Source of the DNA: Limisphaerales bacterium | Lineage (GTDB): Bacteria; Verrucomicrobiota; Verrucomicrobiia; Limisphaerales; SXTU01 | DNA: 64,000 bases | Direction: 5' to 3' | NCBI GenBank assembly: GCA_009773355.1 | Contig: WRPG01000011.1 | Location: 116,091 to 180,090, forward strand | Shown: one piece after another, positions 407 to 21,091 of the stretch | Layout: the number at the start of each line of letters is the position of its first letter | How positions within the stretch are numbered: position 1 is the first letter of the stretch | The notes under the pieces: model-generated | Seen by the model: only the letters and a program-made list of their open reading frames with translations | What the model was told of the DNA's origin: nothing | The model's database searches: none | Translations under genes and position numbers: made by a program

Positions 407-2526
407 GGGGCTTTGAGTTGTCGGATCCATTCTGTCAGGACGGGCAGGGCCGGGGAAAGCTCGTCGTTCACCGACACCTGCGGCATGCGGAAGGCGTCGT
501 TGCGCTGGAGCCGGAGCAGGAGGACGGATTTGGCGGGATGGCCCGGCGTCACCACGCGCGCGCCGGCGATGCCGAGGTCGCCGGCCATCAGTTCGCCGTT
601 GAGGAGCTTCTGTTCCGCGAGCGGGGTCGTGATGCGAGCGTCGAAGAATCCCCGCGAGGGGCCGCCGGGCCGGTGGCACGCGGAGCAGTTCACATCAAGA
701 TAGGAGCGAACGCGCAAATCGGGTGGTGCGGAGGTGTCGCCGAGGGGCGCGAGGCGCGGGAGGCCGGCGAAGTCCGCGTCGCGCAGCCTCGGGGTGAGCC
801 AGCCGCGCGTGTTCCATTCCTGAAGCTGTCGGCCGCGGTTGAGCTGGCGCGTGTTGACGGGCAGCAGGAACCCGGTGACGACGAAGTCGAGGTTCAACTG
901 CTGCTCCACGCCGGGCGAAAACCATCGCCGCCCCGGCGGGCCGGGCACCGGCACAATCTCCGAGTCCTCGACGAGCGCGGCATCGCGCCCGTCCGCCGCC
1001 CAGCGATACGCGGCGGCGCGGACGACGCGCGGGCCGGTGAACCACATCATGTGCGTCTCAAACGGCGTGCCGGCCGGATCGAGTTCATAGTGCTGCGCCA
1101 CGACCGAGCCGGCCGGGAACTCCCACTCGCCCTCGGCCGTGAACTTGATGGCCGCACCCGGCGGCACAGAGATCCAGCGCCGCGCACGCACGCCGGGCTG
1201 CCACGGCGGCGCGTTGATTTCAAAGGCGGTGAACCCGTCGCGCGGGCGCGGTTCCGGGAGTGAGGGGAAGACGCCCGTTTCAGAAAGGCGTTTGGGAATC
1301 GGCGGCGCTGCTGCCAGGCTCGCAGCACCCTTCTCACCGACGTGGCGGATGCGCACGAGCGAGCCGCTGTTCGCCGTGAACTTTTTCCCATCGCGCCAGA
1401 TCGTGCCGCGATTGAGCACGAGCAGCGAGCCATCCGGCGCGACCTCGACGGCCACGGGCGCGTTGCAGCCCTTGGCGAACGTGACCACGTTCGTCGGCGC
1501 GTCGGAATCGAGCGCCTTGACCCAGCGCGCCGCCCAGTCGGCGAAGAAGAACTTGCCGCGCCACGGGTCCGGGAAGAAGCCGGCGGCGCTCTCCGGGCGC
1601 TGGGCGCGCGGATAGAACGCCGCGCCCACGATGCTGCGCCCGATCACCGGCGGATAGGCATGGAGCGGGTTCTGGAACGCGGTATTCGTGGACATGCCCT
1701 CGGCTTTCGGCCAGCCGTAGTTCCCGCCCCGCACGATCTCGTTGACTTCCTCCCACGAGGTTTGCCCCACGTCGGTCGCGAAGAGGCGGCCCGTCTCCCG
1801 CTGAAACGCGAGGCCGAAGGGATTGCGCAGGCCGAGCGCCCAGATCGCGCGATACTTGCCCGAGGTCTGCGCGTGAAACGGGTTGTCCCCGGGGATGGTG
1901 CCGTCGGGATTGAGGCGGAGGATTTTGCCCGAGAGCGTGTCCAGCATCTGCGAGGTGCAGACGCCGTCGCTCGGAATGATCGGCTCGCCGATGGCGACGT
2001 AGAGCCTGCCGTCCGGCCCGAAGCGCAGCGGCCCGCCCTGGTGGCCGGCGGGGTGCCTGCCGCCGCGCTTCGACTGGTCGTCGCCCTCGAGCAGCACCTG
2101 CTCGCTGGCGGGGTCCACGGTGTTGCCGTGCAGCGTGAACCGCGAGAGCACATGGTGCGGAAAGGGCCGGTCCGTGACATAGAGCACGAACAGTTGCGGC
2201 GTGAACGGAAAGTCCGGATGCGGCGCCAGCCCCACCAGGCCGCGCTCCCAGTAATCATCCACGCGCAGGTTGAGCGCGGGCTTCTCCAGCAGCCGGCCGT
2301 CCTTCCAGACGCGGATGATGCCGGTCTGGTCCGCGATGAGGATGCGCCCGTCCGGCAGCGGCGCGATGGCCGTGGCGGCGTTGAGGCCGGTGGCCAGCGT
2401 CTCCTCGATGAAACCGGCGGGCAGTTCGGCACCGTGAACGAGGACTGTTGCGGTGGCACACGCCAACGCCAGCAACGGGCGGCAACGCCAAATGGTGCGA
2501 CGTGGGCTATGGCCGGTTCGGTTCAT
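403..2526 (-). CDS. PQQ-type sugar dehydrogenase (GSDH/sorbosone-like) with C-terminal cytochrome c motif
   Basis: A 707-residue exported protein. After a signal peptide, residues ~35-400 read as a six-bladed soluble glucose/sorbosone dehydrogenase propeller: LPDGRILIADQTG, GLVGLAPHPDF, GGPLRFGPDGRLYVAIGE, LRLNPDGTIPGDNPF and GLRNPFGLAFQ are typical. Near the C-terminus a single haem-c site (VNCSACHRPGG) is followed by a cytochrome-like tail in which methionines could provide the distal ligand. The architecture suggests periplasmic oxidation of a sugar or sugar acid with electrons passed to the attached haem. It overlaps the upstream 620-aa gene by 20 bp and the downstream serine hydrolase by 4 bp, so translation is probably coupled. 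PQQ dependence and substrate are inferred from the family. Confidence 0.82.
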   Translation of the reverse strand: MNRTGHSPRRTIWRCRPLLALACATATVLVHGAELPAGFIEETLATGLNAATAIAPLPDGRILIADQTGIIRVWKDGRLLEKPALNLRVDDYWERGLVGLAPHPDFPFTPQLFVLYVTDRPFPHHVLSRFTLHGNTVDPASEQVLLEGDDQSKRGGRHPAGHQGGPLRFGPDGRLYVAIGEPIIPSDGVCTSQMLDTLSGKILRLNPDGTIPGDNPFHAQTSGKYRAIWALGLRNPFGLAFQRETGRLFATDVGQTSWEEVNEIVRGGNYGWPKAEGMSTNTAFQNPLHAYPPVIGRSIVGAAFYPRAQRPESAAGFFPDPWRGKFFFADWAARWVKALDSDAPTNVVTFAKGCNAPVAVEVAPDGSLLVLNRGTIWRDGKKFTANSGSLVRIRHVGEKGAASLAAAPPIPKRLSETGVFPSLPEPRPRDGFTAFEINAPPWQPGVRARRWISVPPGAAIKFTAEGEWEFPAGSVVAQHYELDPAGTPFETHMMWFTGPRVVRAAAYRWAADGRDAALVEDSEIVPVPGPPGRRWFSPGVEQQLNLDFVVTGFLLPVNTRQLNRGRQLQEWNTRGWLTPRLRDADFAGLPRLAPLGDTSAPPDLRVRSYLDVNCSACHRPGGPSRGFFDARITTPLAEQKLLNGELMAGDLGIAGARVVTPGHPAKSVLLLRLQRNDAFRMPQVSVNDELSPALPVLTEWIRQLKAP

Positions 2527-4369
2527 GGCGGGTCACGGTGAGGTTGCCAATGGTCACATCGGTGTTGTGTGAGACGACGAGCGCGCCGCCAGCGGGGATG
2601 GCGTTGCGATCCTCGGTGGTTTCAAAGTCCCACGCAGCGGGTTCAGGCTGGCCCTCTTTCCAAGACTTCACGCGATAGCGTGCGGCGGCGCCGGGCAGGG
2701 TGTCCACGCGGAGCTTGAGCTGGTAGCGGATGCCCAGCTCCACGCGGCGTGGCTGCGGCTCGACCGCATGGGAAGCCCGCTTGTTTGCGCTTCCGCCGTG
2801 GAATATCCGCCAGGAGCTTTGCTCGAGCTTCTCCGCGAGGCGGAACTCGGCGACGGCACCGAGCGGATACCATTGAACGTGCGGCTGCTTCTTGTCGGCG
2901 AAGTGGCCGGGGAAACGCGCGGCGATGGCCGCGTGCGAAACCCCGTGGGTGGGCGGGCCTTTGAGTGGCGGGGCGTAGCTGTGAAAGGTGACGGCGACGG
3001 TCACGGTGTAGTCCGTCCAAGTGCGGTCGCCGAAGGCGAGGATGCGGTCGTAATACGGTTCGAGGATGCGCACGCCGTCGCGCTCCAGCTTCCAGTGGCC
3101 GTCCACGACCTGCACCGCGTCGGTGATGGACTTCACCTGGCTCCAATCAACGGTGTAGGGCAGCGGCCAAATGTTGCCGCGATGGCAATGCACTGTGACG
3201 CCGCGTTCCGCGCGCTGACCGGCGGTGTCCGTGGCGATGAGGCTCACGGTGTTTGCTCCGTCGCGCAACGCGTCGAAGTCGAGGTCCACGTTGAAGTCGC
3301 CCTGGCGGGCGAGGCGATAGCCGTCAGCACCCACCGAGAGCCGCACGGGCGCGGCGCCGTTGAGCGAATACTCGACCGTCGCAAGCGTCCCCGGTGATGT
3401 CACGCGGCCAAGGATGTTGACCCACATCTGCGGCACGCCGAGGCGGCCAAAGTGCTGCTCGTCGCCATGCCACACGTCAATCACGGGCGGCGCGGGCAGC
3501 GTGGCGGCCCTCGGCTTGGAGGCCGGCGTGCGGATGCGTTTCACCTCGGCCTCGATGGCAGTCTGCTCGGTGGCCGAGGTGAAACTGACACTGAACTTCG
3601 CGGGCAGGGTGGTGAGGGGCGGCGTGTGCTGCTTCGGGTCATCCCAGCCGGGCCGGCCGAAGCCGAAGACGGTCATCAGCGGCAGCGGTTCGCGCGCGCT
3701 GGGCGTGTAGGGCCACGGTGCGTAACTGGCGTCCGCGCCGTCATCCTGATGGTCCACCAGCAGCAGCGCGTGCGGCGATTCCTTCGCGCCGAACACGACC
3801 CAAGGCACGGCCTCGACCCAAGGCCGGCTCAACGGCGTGCGGTGGCCGTGCGGACGGATGACGAAATCCTCCGCCGTGTCCAGCACGCCGCCGGGCGTGC
3901 CTTCGTAGATGAACCAGTAGTTCCCGGGAATCTTCCGCAGCGTCAGCGTCGCGTGCGTGGGAAAGAAATCCCAGTCGCAGGCCGCATCGCCGTTCTTCGT
4001 TTCCGAGTGGATGCGGACATGGCCCGGCTCGCGCAGCGTGACGGTGGAAGTGAACCAGTTGGCATTCGTGTATTGGCCGAAGCCGTAGCCGCAGTGGAAG
4101 TATTTCACCGGCTGGCCGCACTTGGGCAGCCCGCGATACTCGCCCGCCGAGCGCCCGCCGTGCCGATAGGAAATCCAGTCGTGCCCATCGCGGTCGAGAA
4201 TGCTCGCGAAGCCCGCGCCGCGCTTGCCGTAAAGATACGTTGCGGTGGGCGTCTCGACCTTGAAGCACTCCAGGTCGCCAAAGAGCGTCACGTCCGAGAC
4301 GCGCAGGTCAGCGCCACCCGCTGCGCAGGCCAGCGCGAGCAGGAGGAAAAGAGTGGCGGGTGATTTCAT
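2507..4369 (-). CDS. Exported two-module protein: unnamed N-terminal domain plus LamG/DUF1080-like C-terminal domain
   Basis: A 620-aa secreted protein. I chose the ATG giving MKSPATLFLLLALACAAGGA, a clean signal peptide; the track's start is an upstream TTG. Residues ~25-290 form a module also found in the 759-aa protein of this locus (matching blocks: DRDGHDWISY, YEGTPGGVLD, MTVFGFGRPG). A middle segment (~300-400) looks like a bacterial Ig/fibronectin-type beta domain (LGRVTSPGTLATVEYSLNG). The last ~210 residues (RTWTDYTVTVAVTF, YQLKLRVDT, VTIGNLTVTR) resemble concanavalin-like LamG/DUF1080 jelly rolls. No catalytic residues could be assigned. A glycan-binding or lyase-type role in the locus is plausible but is inference. 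Confidence 0.65.
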   Translation of the reverse strand: MKSPATLFLLLALACAAGGADLRVSDVTLFGDLECFKVETPTATYLYGKRGAGFASILDRDGHDWISYRHGGRSAGEYRGLPKCGQPVKYFHCGYGFGQYTNANWFTSTVTLREPGHVRIHSETKNGDAACDWDFFPTHATLTLRKIPGNYWFIYEGTPGGVLDTAEDFVIRPHGHRTPLSRPWVEAVPWVVFGAKESPHALLLVDHQDDGADASYAPWPYTPSAREPLPLMTVFGFGRPGWDDPKQHTPPLTTLPAKFSVSFTSATEQTAIEAEVKRIRTPASKPRAATLPAPPVIDVWHGDEQHFGRLGVPQMWVNILGRVTSPGTLATVEYSLNGAAPVRLSVGADGYRLARQGDFNVDLDFDALRDGANTVSLIATDTAGQRAERGVTVHCHRGNIWPLPYTVDWSQVKSITDAVQVVDGHWKLERDGVRILEPYYDRILAFGDRTWTDYTVTVAVTFHSYAPPLKGPPTHGVSHAAIAARFPGHFADKKQPHVQWYPLGAVAEFRLAEKLEQSSWRIFHGGSANKRASHAVEPQPRRVELGIRYQLKLRVDTLPGAAARYRVKSWKEGQPEPAAWDFETTEDRNAIPAGGALVVSHNTDVTIGNLTVTRHEPNRP

Positions 4370-13105: not shown

Positions 13106-13906
13106 ATGAAGTCCCGAGCCTGTCCGGCCATTGACCAGCGCGCGTTCACCCTCATCGAGCTGCTCGTGGTCATCGCCATCATCGCGATTCTTGCCGGCAT
13201 GTTGCTGCCGGCCTTGAGCAAGGCGAAGGCGAAGGCCAAGACCACCCAGTGCCTGAACAACAACCGGCAACTGGGGATGGCGACGATCCTCTACAAGGAC
13301 GAGTTCGACGACCGGTTTTGCTTCGGCCCGTTCCGGGTCAACAACGCGGCGAGGCTGGTGAACCCCGGTGGCTGGGTGGCCATGCTCATCCCCTACATGG
13401 GCGGCAGCACCAATACCAACAGCCCGCCCAAGTCACTGGTCTGCTCCGCCGCCATGAACGATTTGCTGGGCCAGTTCCCGTTCAAGGTGCATTACCGGGC
13501 CAACCGGCACGTCTTTCGTGACACTACCTTCGCGGCGGCCCCGGCTCCGCTGCGCAGCGCGTTCATCCAGCAACCGTCGCAGATCAACATCCATACGGAG
13601 AAGGAGGCCAACAACGGCGGTTTCTCCGACGACGTGGGCGCCTTCAACGGCTATCGCACCAGTTGGAACTCCACCCCCGCCTCGCGGCTCAGCATGAGGC
13701 GACACAATGACGGCATGGTGGGCACGGCGGCGGATGGTCACGCTGAGTGGCTGCGGATGCCGCCTTTCAGCTTCGGAGCCGCCGCCCCCGCAAACCTGGA
13801 GGCGCTGGGGGACGTGGGCGGCGGTGATCAAACCGGTGCCAGTTGGCCCAAGGGCGGGCGGGAGAAGCTTTTCATTCGTTTCCAAAGTGCCGGCGGCGGC
13901 TTCTGA
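13106..13906 (+). CDS. Prepilin-type protein with H-X9-DG motif (first of tandem pair)
   Basis: A 266-aa type IV pilin-like/pseudopilin protein. The class III leader ends before [19 protein letters not shown], with the conserved Glu at +5 and a hydrophobic helix; the following [13 protein letters not shown] is characteristic of Verrucomicrobia/Lentisphaerae pseudopilins. Near the C-terminus [17 protein letters not shown] fits the prepilin-processing-associated H-X9-DG motif. It would be cleaved by a PilD-type peptidase and assembled into a pseudopilus or displayed on the cell envelope. A second member follows 28 bp downstream. Such genes are strongly amplified in these phyla, often with carbohydrate-use genes; a specific role here is unknown. 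Confidence 0.85.
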
Positions 13907-13934
13907 ACGTCGCCCAGTCTCAACCCAGCCTGCC

Positions 13935-14798
13935 ATGAAGTTCAAACCCCGCTCCGCCACTGTTTGCCGGGCCTTCACCCTCATCGAATTGCTCGTCGTC
14001 ATCGCCATCATTGCGATCCTGGCCGGGATGCTGTTGCCGGCCTTGAGCAAGGCCAAGCAGAAGGGGCAGGGCATCGCGTGCCTCAACAACAGCAAGCAAA
14101 TCCTGCTCGCGTGGCAGCTCTACGCCGGCGACCACGACGACCGCATGGCCTGGTGCGCCAACTCCGCGAACGCGGGCAAACAGGCGAACGCGGCGAGCTG
14201 GGTGGCCGGCTTCCTCGGCAAGCCGGGCACCAACCCCACCGACAACACGAACACCGACATGCTCATCGGCCAGGGCTTCGTGCAGTTCGGCTCCATCGGC
14301 CAATACACGAAGGTGTGGCAGGTCTACAAGTGCCCGGCGGACAAGAGCACTTTCGGCGGTGCCTCCCGCGCGCGGAGCATCTCGATGAACGGCTTCATGA
14401 ACCCGAACCCGACGAGCAGCCCGAGCGGCGGCCTGACCACCGGCGTCTATGCCACGCTCCCCAAGTTCAAGCGCCTCGGCGACCTCGTGTCCCTCTCGCC
14501 GGCAGACGCGATGGTGTTCTGGGATGAACACGAGGACAGCATCAATGACGGCTTCTTCCTGGTCGTGGGCAACGGCGCCAATCCCAAAAATCCCGCGCAA
14601 TACCGGATCGTGGACTGGCCCGCCTCGTATCACAACGGCTGCGCGGGCATCGCCTTCGCGGACGGCCACTCCGAGATTCACAAATGGCAGGATGCGCGCA
14701 CCATGCCGCGCGTCGGCCAGTTGCCGGCCGGCACCCAGGCACAGCCCAACAACCCCGACATCGGCTGGATGCAGGCGCACGCGACGGCGGTGCCCTGA
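13935..14798 (+). CDS. Prepilin-type protein with H-X9-DG motif (second of tandem pair)
   Basis: A 287-aa paralogue of the preceding gene. The start [20 protein letters not shown] is preferred over the upstream in-frame start in the track. Leader and helix are almost identical to its neighbour ([21 protein letters not shown], then [12 protein letters not shown]), while the globular part differs: a [10 protein letters not shown] segment and a [21 protein letters not shown]9-DG block. The near identity over the first ~35 codons, also at the DNA level, suggests recent duplication or gene conversion of the leader region. It is probably co-transcribed with the first prepilin and the DUF1080 gene. 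Confidence 0.85.
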
Positions 14799-16139: not shown

Positions 16140-16850
16140 ATGAGCCAGTCGCGCAACCCCATCATCGTCGCCCTCGACGTGCCGCACTTGGAATCGGCCC
16201 TCGCCTTGGTCACGCAGCTCGCACCAGTCGTCGGCGCGTTCAAGGTGGGCAAGGAACTCTTCGTCGCCACCGGGCCGGACATCGTGCGGCGCATCCGCGA
16301 CACGGGCGCGTCCGTCTTCCTCGACCTCAAGTTCCACGACATTCCCAACACGGTTGCGAAGGCCGTGGAGGCGGCGGTGCGGCTCGACGTGCAGATGCTG
16401 ACCATCCACACCAGCGGCGGGCTGGCGATGATGCAGGCGGCGCAGCAGTCGGCGGAGGCAGCCGCGCTCCGCACCGGCAAGACGCAGCCGCTGGTGCTGG
16501 GCGTCACAGTGCTGACGAGCCTGAACACGAACGACCTGGCGGAAGTCGGCGTGCCGCACGACGTGGGCAATCAGGTCGAGCGGCTGGCGAGCCTGGCGGC
16601 CAAGGCGGGCTTGGGCGGGCTGGTTTGCTCCCCGCTGGAGATCGCCCGGCTGCGCCAGATCCTTCCGCAAAGTGTTCAGCTCGTGACCCCCGGCATCCGC
16701 CCCGCCGACAGCAAGGCCGACGACCAGAAGCGCACGCTCACGCCGAAGGAGGCGATGACAGCGGGCGCGAGCTGGCTGGTGATTGGCCGGCCCATCTGCG
16801 CCGCGCCGAACCCACGCGCGGCAGCGGAGGCGATTCTCGCTTCGCTGTAG
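16140..16850 (+). CDS. pyrF: Orotidine 5'-phosphate decarboxylase
   Basis: A 236-aa cytoplasmic enzyme converting OMP to UMP in the last step of de novo pyrimidine synthesis. IIVALDVPHLESALAL at the start and the catalytic block FLDLKFHDIPNTVAKAV (Asp-x-Lys-x-x-x-Asp) are diagnostic of the shorter, bacterial class of PyrF; LVTPGIRPADSKADDQKR gives the phosphate-gripper loop and WLVIGRPI the C-terminal barrel strand. The length is normal for the family. It stands 40 bp after the small exported protein and is followed by an inverted repeat that could end transcription. Confidence 0.95.
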   Translation: MSQSRNPIIVALDVPHLESALALVTQLAPVVGAFKVGKELFVATGPDIVRRIRDTGASVFLDLKFHDIPNTVAKAVEAAVRLDVQMLTIHTSGGLAMMQAAQQSAEAAALRTGKTQPLVLGVTVLTSLNTNDLAEVGVPHDVGNQVERLASLAAKAGLGGLVCSPLEIARLRQILPQSVQLVTPGIRPADSKADDQKRTLTPKEAMTAGASWLVIGRPICAAPNPRAAAEAILASL

Positions 16851-16854
16851 AGCA

Positions 16855-16947
16855 GGTTCAAAGTTTCAAGTTCAAGGTTCAAAGGTGTCCGGTGCATCCG
16901 AGCGCTTCAGCCCGACTTGGAACCTCGAACCTTGAACTTTGAACTCC
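16855..16947. repeat. Imperfect inverted repeat between pyrF and the 90-aa gene
   Basis: Two AT-richer arms face each other: GGTTCAAAGTTTCAAGTTCAAGG and the reverse complement of AACCTCGAACCTTGAACTTTGAACTCC, about 35 bp apart. Each arm is itself built of repeated TTCAA(A/G) units. It can fold into a long hairpin and sits directly after the pyrF stop, so it may act as a transcript end or simply be a dispersed palindrome. Its base composition is unlike the flanking genes. Confidence 0.7.
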
Positions 16948-17003
16948 TCATCCAACCCGACTTGCGCCTTGCAGTTTGAAGTCCGCCCGGTAGTTTCGCG
17001 CGC

Positions 17004-17276
17004 GTGTCACAACCGGTGAAAAAGACGAAGCCACCCAAGGCCGTGATGCTCGGCGTCGGACTCGACTCCGACGGGCACAAGCGCGTGACGACCGGCGACA
17101 ACTTCGCCCTCGTCGGCGGCTCGAAGGACACCCATGAGCAGATGACCGAGAAGGCCATCAAGATCAACGAGAAGCTCAAGCAGAAGGGCAAGCAGCTCGA
17201 AGAAGTCTCACGCGAGGAGTTCGACGACATCGCGCACTCCGTCGGCCTGCACAAGCACAGCCCACAGGCAAACTGA
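17004..17276 (+). CDS. Small charged protein of unknown function preceding nuoA
   Basis: A 90-aa cytoplasmic protein starting with GTG. It is lysine-rich (KKTKPPKAVMLGVGLDSDGHKR, EKAIKINEKLKQKGKQLEE) with a helical, possibly coiled-coil C-terminal half and no membrane segment. I do not recognise the family. It ends six bases before the nuoA ATG, so it is probably the first cistron of the complex I transcript, but nothing in it resembles a known complex I subunit or assembly factor. Confidence 0.65.
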   Translation: MSQPVKKTKPPKAVMLGVGLDSDGHKRVTTGDNFALVGGSKDTHEQMTEKAIKINEKLKQKGKQLEEVSREEFDDIAHSVGLHKHSPQAN

Positions 17277-17282
17277 TTTCCC

Positions 17283-17660
17283 ATGGGCGCCGACCAACAT
17301 CCTTACCTCTTCCTCCTCGTCTTCTTCGTGATGGCGCTGGGCTTCGCGGTCGGGCCGCTCATCCTCGCGATGCTGTGGGCGAAGATTTTTTCCCCGGCGA
17401 AACCCGGCGAGATGAAGAACGCGACTTACGAGTGCGGCCTGGAATCCAAGGGCGACGCCTGGGTGGCCTTCAAGTCCGAGTATTACCTCTACGGCATCCT
17501 GTTCCTCATCTTCGACGTGGAGACGATCTTCCTCCTTCCGTTCTGCGTCGCCTTCACGGGCCTGTCCGTGGGCGCGTGCCTGGCGATGCTCGTCTTCGTG
17601 CTCCTGCTGGTCGAGGGACTGGCGTGGGCGTGGGTGAAGGGAGTGCTCACTTGGAAATGA
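17283..17660 (+). CDS. nuoA: NADH-quinone oxidoreductase subunit A
   Basis: A 125-aa inner-membrane subunit of complex I with three hydrophobic helices. Diagnostic blocks are [15 protein letters not shown] (the conserved YECG loop with the redox-state-sensitive cysteine) and [21 protein letters not shown] (FDVEtxFL). Length matches the family. NuoA helps form the quinone-site junction with NuoH and NuoB/D. It is the first recognisable complex I gene of this operon and is separated from nuoB by a 97-bp space holding a hairpin-forming repeat. Confidence 0.95.
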
Positions 17661-17671
17661 AGACGGGAAAC

Positions 17672-17749
17672 GGAGTGCTGGAGTGCTGGAGTGCTGGAGC
17701 AATGCAGCCCCTTGGCCACCACTCCACCACTCCATCACTCCACCACTCC
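17672..17749. repeat. Hairpin-forming short-repeat element between nuoA and nuoB
   Basis: Three tandem GGAGTGCT units are followed, after about 20 bases, by four CACTCC(A/C) type units (CCACTCCACCACTCCATC). The second half is close to the reverse complement of the first, so transcripts would fold into a long imperfect hairpin. It lies just before the nuoB ATG. It may attenuate or protect the polycistronic message; it could equally be a neutral dispersed repeat. Confidence 0.75.
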
Positions 17750-17757
17750 GCCTGATT

Positions 17758-18366
17758 ATGGACGACGGACTCCGCAACGAACTCAGCAAGCAAGGCGTCG
17801 TGGTCGTGAAGCTCGAGGAGCTTTACAACTGGGGCCGCAAGAACTCCGTCTGGCCGCTCTCCTTCGGCCTCGCGTGCTGCGCCATCGAGATGATGGCCGC
17901 CAGCATGGCCCGCTACGACCTCGCCCGCTTCGGCGCGGAAGTCTTCCGCCCCTCGCCCCGGCAGGCGGACCTCATGATCGTGGCCGGCACCGTCACCAAG
18001 AAGATGGCCCCGCAGGTCGTGCGCCTCTACAACCAGATGCCGGAGCCGAAATACGTCATCGCCATGGGCGCGTGCGCCATCAGCGGCGGTCCGTTCAAGC
18101 AGGGCTACAATGTCCTCAAGGGCATAGACAGATACATCCCGGTGGACGTCCACATCCCCGGCTGCCCGCCCCGGCCCGAGGCGCTCATCCACGCCTTCAT
18201 GACCCTCCAGCGGAAGATTGACGCCCAGAAAGTCTTCGGCCCCGATCGCGCGCATTACTTCGACGCCAGCAAGCCCAGCGAATTCCCCGTCCCGCTCTTC
18301 GGCGAGCACGACTTGGTGCCGCCGAAGAATCCGAACGTGTGGGAACCGGCGGTGGTGGTGCGCTGA
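17758..18366 (+). CDS. nuoB: NADH-quinone oxidoreductase subunit B
   Basis: A 202-aa peripheral-arm subunit that carries iron-sulfur cluster N2, the last electron carrier before quinone. The ligand cysteines are visible: [21 protein letters not shown] and [11 protein letters not shown]. The start [13 protein letters not shown] is taken after the repeat; the track's longer ORF reads through that repeat and is unlikely. A C-terminal extension ([24 protein letters not shown]) of about 25 residues beyond the core is seen in several non-proteobacterial homologues. Confidence 0.95.
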
Positions 18367-18378
18367 ACTTGTCTTTCC

Positions 18379-19017
18379 GTGGAAACCCTTGAGCAAACCA
18401 AAGCCCGCGCCGAAGCCGCCGTGCCCGGCGCGCAGTTGAGCGTCGTGAAGAACGACAGCCCCAGCGCGCAGCATTCGTTGCTCGTGGATGTCGAGCACGC
18501 CTACGCCGTCGCCAAGTTCCTCCGCGATGACCCGCAGCTCCGCCTCGACTATTGCTCGAACGTCACCGGGGTTGATTTCCTTGATGCCGAGCTGTCCGAG
18601 AAGGTGAAGGTCAAGAAGGTCGTGGACGGCGTGGAGAAGGAGGTCGAGGAAGTGAAGAAGACCAAGCGCGCCGGCTACCTTGAAGCGGTCTATCACCTCT
18701 ACTCGATGAGCTTGAAGCACGGGCCGGTCATCCTGCGCCAGCGCACGCCGGGCCGCGCGGACCTGGTGAAGGTCACGTCGCTCACGCCGCTGTGGCGGAG
18801 CTGCGAGTTTCAGGAGCGCGAGGTGTTCGACCTCTACGGCGTGCTCTTTGACGGGCACCCGGACTTGCGGCGGATTCTGATGTGGGACGGTTTCAAGGAC
18901 TACCCGATGCGCAAGGATTACGTGGAGCCGGACGATTACGAATACGAGCCAACGCCGCACGATGAGGTGCTGGAGAAGGCGAAGGCGCATCAGGCAGCGC
19001 AGGAGGTGAAGGCGTGA
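18379..19017 (+). CDS. nuoC: NADH-quinone oxidoreductase subunit C
   Basis: A 212-aa separate NuoC (30-kDa subunit), GTG start. DYCSNVTGVDF, EAVYHLYSMSLKHGPVILR, LWRSCEFQEREVFDLYGVLFDGHPDLRRIL are family signatures. A highly charged stretch of about 20 residues (KVKVKKVVDGVEKEVEEVKK) interrupts the usual strand-strand connection near residue 75, and a helical tail follows the FKDYPMRKDY motif. Not fused to NuoD, unlike in enterobacteria. Its stop overlaps the next start (GTGA), which leads not to nuoD but to an unrelated pair of genes. Confidence 0.94.
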   Translation: METLEQTKARAEAAVPGAQLSVVKNDSPSAQHSLLVDVEHAYAVAKFLRDDPQLRLDYCSNVTGVDFLDAELSEKVKVKKVVDGVEKEVEEVKKTKRAGYLEAVYHLYSMSLKHGPVILRQRTPGRADLVKVTSLTPLWRSCEFQEREVFDLYGVLFDGHPDLRRILMWDGFKDYPMRKDYVEPDDYEYEPTPHDEVLEKAKAHQAAQEVKA

Positions 19018-19295
19018 GCGAAGGCGCGCTTAAGGAAACGGCGGCACCGTATCGGACGGGTGAAGCGCGCAGTGAGTTCGCGCCGCTGATTGATGAGTTG
19101 TATCGGGAGGAAGTGCTGGCTGCCCGCCGGATGGCCCCGGAGGAAAAATTGATTTTGGGGGAACGGCTGTTTCGCTGGGCCTGCGCCATCACGCTGGAGG
19201 GCATCAAACTCCAGCACCCGGAGGCCAGCGAGGCGGACTGCCAGCGTATGCTCCGCGAGCGGGTGGAACTCGGGCGCAAACTGGAGGCGCGGTGA
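19014..19295 (+). CDS. Small partner protein of a nucleotidyltransferase pair, inserted in the nuo operon
   Basis: A 93-aa, helix-rich cytoplasmic protein with GTG start overlapping the nuoC stop by four bases. The core ERLFRWACAITLEGIKLQHPEASEADCQRMLRERV recalls small proteins that often precede DUF6036-like nucleotidyltransferase genes in Planctomycetes, Verrucomicrobia and cyanobacteria (from memory). It ends in a GTGA overlap with the nucleotidyltransferase gene, so the two are translationally coupled. No helix-turn-helix or HEPN R-x4-6-H motif is evident. It could be an antitoxin or cofactor; this is inference from the pairing. Confidence 0.7.
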   Translation: MSEGALKETAAPYRTGEARSEFAPLIDELYREEVLAARRMAPEEKLILGERLFRWACAITLEGIKLQHPEASEADCQRMLRERVELGRKLEAR

Positions 19296-19843
19296 CCACC
19301 ATTGAAGATGTCACGCTGCGGGTGCTGGACGCGCTCAACGCATCGGGGACGCCGCATATGCTCGTGGGGTCGTTCTCCAGCAATCTTTACGGCATTCCCC
19401 GTTCGACCAAGGACGCGGACTTTGTCTTGGAATTGCAGGGCGACCTCGGGCGGACATTTTTCGCGAGCCTGGGTGCGGGCTTCGAGATTGACCCGCAGTT
19501 GAAGTTCGAGACCAACACCGGGACGTTCAAACAGGAACTGCGCTTCCAGGGAACACCCTTTACGGTGGAGCTGTTCCGGCTGTCTGACGATTCGTTCGAT
19601 CAGGAACGGTATCGTCGCCGGCTGCCGGCCAGGCTCTTCGGACGGCAGGCATGGGTGCCCACGGCGGAGGACGTCATCGTGATGAAGGTGCGCTGGTGCC
19701 GGCCCAAGGACCGCGAGGACGTTCGGAATGTTCTGACCGTGCAACGTGGAAAACTGGATTGGGCCTACATCGAGCAGTGGTGCCGCCAGCATGGCACGCT
19801 TGCCTTGTTGGAGGAAATCCGGCGGACTGTCCCTGACATCTGA
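19292..19843 (+). CDS. Nucleotidyltransferase-fold protein (DUF6036/AbiEii-like) inside the nuo operon
   Basis: A 183-aa protein with the minimal nucleotidyltransferase signature: VGSFSSNLYGIPRSTKDADFVL has Gly26-Ser27 followed by Asp41-x-Asp43, the metal-binding pair. The rest (FTVELFRLSDDSFDQERYRRR, WVPTAEDVIVMKVRW, KDREDVRNVL) is typical of standalone toxin-type or DUF6036 nucleotidyltransferases, with the third acidic residue probably in VELF. Substrate is unknown; relatives modify tRNA, proteins or small molecules. It is flanked by nuoC's small partner gene (4-bp overlap) and nuoD (3-bp gap), so it is expressed with complex I. Codon use looks a little less GC-biased than in nuoD, hinting at acquisition. 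Confidence 0.78.
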   Translation: MTTIEDVTLRVLDALNASGTPHMLVGSFSSNLYGIPRSTKDADFVLELQGDLGRTFFASLGAGFEIDPQLKFETNTGTFKQELRFQGTPFTVELFRLSDDSFDQERYRRRLPARLFGRQAWVPTAEDVIVMKVRWCRPKDREDVRNVLTVQRGKLDWAYIEQWCRQHGTLALLEEIRRTVPDI

Positions 19844-19846
19844 GCC

Positions 19847-21091
19847 ATGACCGCCCCTGTTGACACCTCCGACCCGAAGCAGCTCGGTGCTGACACCGAC
19901 GGAACGCAGTTCATGACGTTCCACGACCTCGCCTACGATGCGGGGAAGACGGTTTTTCAACGCAAAGCCCAGCCCGTCGGTCAAGGGCGCGAGGGCGAGT
20001 TGCTCGAAGTCGCGATGGGGCCGCAGCACCCGTCCACCCACGGCGTGTTCCGCATGGACGTGGTGCTTGATGGCGAGACGGTCGTGAAGCTCAAGCCGGT
20101 CTTCGGCTACCTGCACCGCAACCACGAGAAGATTGCCGAGAACACGAGCTACCTTGGCTCGATGCCCTACACGGACCGGCTGGATTACTTCTGCTCGCTG
20201 ACGAACAACTGGGCTTACGCGCTGTCCGTCGAGAAGCTCGCCGGGCTGCAAGTCCCCGAGCGCGCCGAATACATCCGCCTCATCACCGCCGAGCTGACGC
20301 GCGTGCTGAACCACACCTGCCTCGCGGGTTTTCTGCTCCAGGACATGGGCGCGCTCGGCACGCCGCTCATGTATGCCTTCCGCGAGCGCGAGAAGATTCT
20401 CGACCTCATCGAATCGCTCACCGGCGCGCGGATGATGTGCAACTACATGAGGTTCGGCGGCTGCCGTTGCGACTTGCCGGCGGGCTGGTTGGACGAAGCG
20501 AAGAAAGTCGTCGCGGAGTATCCCAAGTTCCTCGACGAGTTCGACGCGCTGCTGTCCGGCAACGAAATCCTCATGGCCCGCACGCAGGGCGTGGGCAAGT
20601 TGTCCGCCGAACTCGCCATCAGCGCCGGCATCACCGGCCCGATGCTGCGCGCCAGCGGCGTGGATTACGACCTGCGCAAGGTGGACAACTACGGCCTCTA
20701 CAGCCGCTACCCGTTCCGCGTCCCGCTTGGCAGCCACGGCGATGTGTATGACCGCTACATGATTCGGATGCTGGAGATGCGCGAGTCGCTGAAGATTCTG
20801 GAGCCGGCGCTGAAGGACATCCCCGAAGGCCCGGTCGTGGACCCGAAGGCGAAGCTCCGCGGCTTCCGCCCGAAGCCCGGCGAGGCTTACGGGCGAATCG
20901 AATCGCCGAAGGGCGAGCTGGGTTTCTACCTCATCAGCGACGGCAGCCCGAACCCGTATCGCTACCGCGTCCGCCCGCCAAGCCTCATCAACCTGACCAT
21001 CCTCGAAGACATGTGCCTCGGGCAGACGGTGGCGGATGCGATTGTGACCTTGGGCAGCGTGGACATTGTGCTAGGCGAAGTTGACCGCTGA
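19847..21091 (+). CDS. nuoD: NADH-quinone oxidoreductase subunit D
   Basis: A 414-aa 49-kDa subunit forming the quinone pocket with Nuo[13 protein letters not shown], the [12 protein letters not shown] histidine region, [24 protein letters not shown] and the C-terminal [17 protein letters not shown] are all present; length is normal. An N-terminal extension of about 30 residues ([19 protein letters not shown]) precedes the core. It is followed by a 40-bp space and then nuoI, so nuoE, nuoF and nuoG are absent from the place where they usually stand. Confidence 0.95.

Follow-up and report, generated by a model that had tools for sequence, protein, structure and literature searches.

The closest characterised relative of the toxin-like protein considered here is MenT1 (Rv0078A) of Mycobacterium tuberculosis, a nucleotidyltransferase (NTase) that modifies tRNA (PMC10435456). 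The toxicity of MenT1 requires residues D41, K137 and D152, and T39 is a site of self-phosphorylation induced by the antitoxin (PMC10435456, PMC11375011). That antitoxin, MenA1 (Rv0078B), is a protein of 68 amino acids that lacks a DNA-binding domain and is encoded directly upstream of MenT1 (PMC10435456, PMC11375011), and the MenAT1 module is without transcriptional autoregulation (PMC11375011). A toxin of the same superfamily is found in AbiE (AbiEi/AbiEii), a type IV toxin–antitoxin (TA) system of phage defence. AbiEi antitoxins are larger, two-domain proteins that include a DNA-binding domain. A literature search for TA modules within the nuo operon found no relevant paper.

We analysed a window of 64,000 nucleotides (the whole stretch of DNA under study) from a Limisphaerales bacterium, lying in contig C42 of a 6.16-Mb assembly in 162 contigs (genome G000), in which two small genes are enclosed between nuoC and nuoD. 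Our reading, held with considerable confidence, is that these genes form a TA module of the MenA1–MenT1 type that is a passenger at the nuoC/nuoD junction and is probably expressed on the nuo transcript. All genes of the locus are on the forward strand. The left flank is nuoC, encoding the 30-kDa subunit of complex I (18379–19017; Complex1_30kDa, PF00329, E = 2.6e-32), whose TGA stop shares a 4-bp overlap, GTGA (19014–19017), with the GTG start of the first inserted gene. This menA-like gene (19014–19295) encodes 93 amino acids, a putative member of the Rv0078B (MenA1) antitoxin family as judged by hhalign, the Pfam matches of partner proteins and a three-helix model. Its stop in turn overlaps, by another 4-bp GTGA (19292–19295), the GTG start of the menT-like gene (19292–19843), which encodes an NTase of 183 amino acids, a putative toxin of the MenT1/AbiEii type on the basis of DUF6036, 8AN4 profile and Foldseek matches. 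A spacer of 3 nt, gcc (19844–19846), separates the toxin stop from nuoD, which encodes the 49-kDa subunit of complex I and begins with a new ATG (19847–21091; Complex1_49kDa, PF00346, E = 6.7e-92). Comparison of junctions indicates that the direct joint of nuoC to nuoD in most relatives is an identical GTGA overlap, and that the opening codons of nuoD in the window are unlike those of its congeners. The nuoD start contains an imperfect 30-bp tandem duplication (19858–19897; TGTTGACACC / TGCTGACACC), because of which the N-terminus of the protein is longer than in congeners. Elsewhere in the window (13106–14798), two adjacent ORFs have a prepilin-type N-terminus in common.

Both inserted ORFs are more than chance frames, since their homologues keep the same order and spacing: at 49 named loci the NTase gene has a small ORF no more than 20 nt away, and at 35 of them the two overlap by 4 bp. 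In the window and in related pairs, the antitoxin-like gene stands directly upstream of the toxin-like gene, as in MenA1–MenT1. Relative to the copies in genome G093, pN/pS is 0.169/0.734 for the NTase gene and 0.195/0.631 for the small gene, the comparison value for nuoC being 0.200/0.511; purifying selection is acting on both cassette genes. The GC3 of the module is 0.76–0.78, against 0.84–0.92 for the nuo genes.

The NTase matches DUF6036 (PF19502; E = 9.9e-7, 29.1 bits against a Pfam cut-off of 23.6), a family for which a literature search found no paper that names it, and its match to DUF2204 (PF09970) falls just under the Pfam cut-off. Across a profile of 58 NTase relatives, 23 of which match the AbiEii family PF08843, the residues G26, P36, R37, T39, D41, D43, E126, K132, W135, D143 and W163 are invariant. 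In two sequence profile searches, M. tuberculosis MenT1 (8AN4) came out as the best PDB match (E = 3e-7 and 3.7e-7), and the profile alignment places K132 and D143 of the NTase opposite K137 and D152 of MenT1. All five catalytic positions of MenT1 (T39, D41, D43, K137, D152) are thus present, as T39, D41, D43, K132 and D143, the first three within the motif T39-K-D41-A-D43 encoded by codons 39–43 (19406–19420 of the window). The AlphaFold2 model of the protein (pLDDT 93.8, pTM 0.89) was compared with the PDB using Foldseek, and the top five matches are five MenT1 chains from MenT1 or MenAT1 structures (E = 6.1e-8 to 1.5e-6), with JHP933 and ANT(2'')-Ia ranked below them. Over the whole length, the TM-score to MenT1 is 0.59–0.65, with an rmsd of 5.8–6.8, which denotes a family relation without near identity. 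The orientation of the lobes in the model, and the substrate, may differ from those of MenT1.

The small partner was connected to MenA1 through intermediates. Its AlphaFold2 model has helices at residues 23–39, 42–67 and 73–92, with pLDDT of about 90–98 in these segments, and a disordered N-terminus. A Pfam search with the window's protein itself gave no match at E ≤ 1, the PF18993 and AbiEi families included. When the six closest copies of the small protein were aligned with ten more distant partners using hhalign, the two groups matched with a probability of 98.5 (E = 3.1e-15, 40% identity), and all ten of the distant partners match PF18993, the 'Rv0078B-related antitoxin' family. PF18993 is also matched directly by 24 of 49 partners of related NTases, the best at 2.3e-11. 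By these sequence relations the small protein is homologous to the Rv0078B (MenA1) antitoxin family and is a putative antitoxin. A fold search with its model gave no significant match, MenA1 (8an5_C) aligning over 37 residues with an rmsd of 0.9 and E = 5.0. A direct PDB sequence match to MenA1 had been sought and was not obtained, as the short helical profile drew helical repeat proteins and designed proteins. In its own genome, the search for PF18993 gave nothing above the cut-off, with one sub-threshold match elsewhere (contig C50, E = 0.058).

The assignment of the pair to the MenAT1 type follows from the fold and residues of the toxin together with the homology of the antitoxin, the latter half by way of the intermediates. 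Neither PADLOC nor NCBIfam recognises the pair. A competing assignment, to an AbiE (type IV) or a HEPN-MNT module, has in its favour that the NTase domain shares their superfamily and that AbiEii is matched by the 23 relatives counted above. The partner is, however, a 93-residue three-helix protein without an AbiEi Pfam match, the Rx4-6H motif of HEPN proteins was not found in its sequence, and its homology is to PF18993, while Foldseek ranks MenT1 first; we therefore regard this assignment as very unlikely. A preliminary description made from the letters of the DNA had placed ORFs of 93 and 183 codons between nuoC and nuoD with 4-bp GTGA overlaps and a 3-nt gap, which is exact to the base, and had called the first product helical, in agreement with the three-helix model, and the second a GS...DxD nucleotidyltransferase, which corresponds to G26-S27...D41-x-D43. 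Its guess at a DUF6036/AbiEii-type toxin module was right in kind, and the fold, the profile matches and the homology of the antitoxin refine it to the MenA1–MenT1 type.

How often the nuoC/nuoD junction is occupied was examined across the order, in a survey for inserts that covered nuoC/nuoD among the nuo junctions. The plain 4-bp overlap of nuoC and nuoD is present at 45 of the 69 scored junctions, and the pair is absent from all ten other congeners that have both genes, in which nuoC overlaps or abuts nuoD. A MenAT module is found at the junction in five genomes belonging to four families (G000, G093, G209, G154 and G090; L093 is the contig of locus L174 in G093 and L098 that of L173 in G209, and neither was counted twice), and in G000, G093 and G154 the left joint is an overlap of reading frames. 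The G093 copy and the window share 73% identity in the toxin and 68% in nuoC. Since the arrangement recurs in several independent assemblies, misassembly can be argued against. In G154 (L175) and G090 (L176) the MenT-like gene and nuoD are separated by an extra ORF of about 400–430 amino acids, whose product we take to be similar to PQQ-repeat or BamB-like proteins. Remnants are visible at the junction in two further genomes, G187 having a MenA-like gene only, which overlaps nuoC, and G224 a toxin fragment only. The MenA-like ORF of G187 (L245, about 608–889) is apparently complete, as if the toxin had gone first.

Named relatives of the cassette occur mostly in Verrucomicrobiota, with some in Planctomycetota. 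In a tree of 117 toxins, one clade (100/99) is made up of nine copies adjacent to cysN, from nine genomes, and several of these lie directly between cysD and cysN. The sister of this clade comprises eight copies (100/98), namely all five from nuoC/nuoD and three located elsewhere (G012, G050, G208). Close relatives of the pair are also present at alaS, a HemN-like gene and ilvD, and at stand-alone loci; we took the identities of cysD, cysN, alaS, ilvD and the HemN-like gene from reading the flanking protein sequences. In locus L007 (G003, 766–2661, reverse strand orientation), the MenT-like and CysN-like sequences are contained in a single open frame of 631 amino acids with no stop between them, representing a fusion or an internal start. 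The window's own genome has a second MenT-like gene, 43% identical and stand-alone with a small upstream partner (L002; contig C85, 46567–47118).

The preliminary description had proposed that the position reflects a role, with the NTase nucleotidylating a complex I subunit or otherwise regulating NADH dehydrogenase, or with control of the toxin coupled to respiration. Such functional coupling could draw on the filling of the junction in five genomes of four families with remnants in two more, on the left-side frame overlaps in G000, G093 and G154 and on purifying selection. Against it, nuoC and nuoD do without the pair in ten of ten congeners and in most of the order, the sister clade resides at cysN and others near alaS, ilvD or the HemN-like gene or alone, even the nuo clade has three members outside nuo (G012, G050, G208), and the closest characterised relative targets tRNA (PMC10435456). 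These observations leave a role specific to complex I unsupported, and we consider it extremely improbable.

The alternative named in the same description, chance insertion, oversimplifies as well. In this account a mobile TA module was inserted at random and neutrally, its position being without significance, and related pairs are indeed distributed over many loci while the congeners are empty. A general preference of the cassette for tight operons was considered and rejected (9 of 58, compared with 25 of 167 control genes), and the lack of such enrichment is likewise in keeping with random insertion. The account is nevertheless unsatisfactory because the nuoC/nuoD junction recurs: the same junction is filled across families, with remnants in two genomes, and clades follow the junction (nine of nine for cysD/cysN, five of eight for nuoC/nuoD). 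Nor were signs of an insertion vehicle found. The insert consists of two ORFs only, with no transposase, and no terminal inverted repeats were found at it; TGAGC occurs at both ends, although 5 bp is too short to count and could be due to chance. Searches of INPHARED and IMG/VR returned no viral or phage carriers or homologues, and the plasmid matches were only five, cyanobacterial and at most 30% identical. We judge random insertion to be unlikely. With respect to synteny, the order of nuoC, the two genes and nuoD is thus missing from close relatives and present in distant ones, and the absence from congeners and the many loci that the preliminary description had named as pointing to a mobile module were both observed, alongside a distant synteny of the kind it had proposed to check for.

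It is also conceivable that nuoC/nuoD serves small cassettes, TA pairs and others, as a general landing site because inserts that keep the start–stop overlaps are tolerated there; the MenAT lineage would then be one occupant. Two other kinds of insert are found there. A toxin of the ParE type (PF05016, E = 7e-16 and 3e-17), accompanied by a 63-aa partner, is located at nuoC/nuoD in L049 (G032) and L232 (G059), and an orphan ORF of 71 amino acids without a Pfam match (MTKDEIK..RPFRPFKV..) in L048 (G012), L231 (G061) and L249 (G181), from two families. Because the junction has also accepted these, it may be a tolerant site. The MenAT occupants, however, fall into a single clade that they share with three outsiders, a pattern that speaks for inheritance or transfer mediated by the flanks rather than repeated independent landing, and among the nuo junctions the survey for inserts covered nuoC/nuoD. 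We view a general landing site as a real possibility, albeit short of probable. The genus tree gives the window's genome a weakly supported, nested position above G006, and on the nuoC plus nuoD tree the presence of the module requires at least three changes. The nesting in the genus tree and the lower GC3 of the module favour, without proving, a gain by the window's genome at a pre-existing junction over repeated exact loss in congeners.

Our preferred reading, a MenAT1-type module carried as a passenger, leads to the following proposal for its operation. No sigma-70-like promoter was found in 16850–20200, in a scan that may not cover the promoters of this phylum; with no recognisable promoter of its own and with an antitoxin that, like MenA1, has no DNA-binding domain, the module is most likely expressed from the nuo transcript. 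On one nuo messenger, the GTGA overlaps would lead to synthesis of NuoC, antitoxin, toxin and NuoD in that order. The 93-aa antitoxin, made first, would bind the toxin and block its active site, and may also promote self-phosphorylation of the toxin on T39. If the supply of antitoxin failed, free toxin would, by analogy with MenT1, add nucleotides to the 3' ends of tRNA, and translation would stop. In E. coli, MenT1 itself is reported to be non-toxic. The module would be a passenger at a junction already present in the genus, belonging to a lineage that occupies nuoC/nuoD in several families and has presumably been lost often, sometimes leaving behind the antitoxin or a toxin fragment.

A more far-reaching version, which at present we find doubtful, is that in this order of Verrucomicrobiota MenAT-type modules are long-term residents of nuoC/nuoD and cysD/cysN, junctions within housekeeping operons, spread by recombination between flanking genes, and that the benefit of such locations would be a host operon in place of a promoter and autoregulation of their own. 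If this were true, shutdown of the host operon, through phage infection or loss of respiration, would end the supply of antitoxin and release the toxin. The nuoC/nuoD lineage and its cysN sister may exemplify a dependence of TA modules on host operons, and their residence there opens a general question to testing, namely whether TA modules that do not regulate themselves need such operons in order to be expressed and to persist. The analysis also provides a probable identity for a widespread two-gene cassette to which NCBIfam and PADLOC are blind and of which Pfam labels only the toxin half, as DUF6036. It enlarges the MenA1 antitoxin family far beyond the 21 genes of the MenAT1 paper. A module of the MenAT1 kind is in itself already known; the unusual part is the recurrent junction.

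Among known systems, the ParE-type pairs of G032 and G059 resemble the window's pair in their nuoC/nuoD location and gene order, with a toxin from an unrelated family. DUF6036 (PF19502) and DUF2204 (PF09970) resemble the NTase in sequence but are families without an assigned function. AbiE has in common with the pair the toxin superfamily, as shown by PF08843 in 23 of 58 relatives, but the window's partner does not resemble the DNA-binding antitoxin AbiEi, and PADLOC gives no match. The nearest system is MenAT1 of M. tuberculosis. The window's toxin is only about 20% identical to MenT1, its antitoxin has 93 residues instead of 68, with an additional disordered N-terminal extension, and the pair, known here from sequence and models, sits inside a housekeeping operon. 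What the two have in common is the order of antitoxin followed by toxin, the NTase fold, the active-site residues T39, D41 and D43 with the lysine and the further aspartate, and a small antitoxin, of the PF18993 family by homology, that has no DNA-binding domain.
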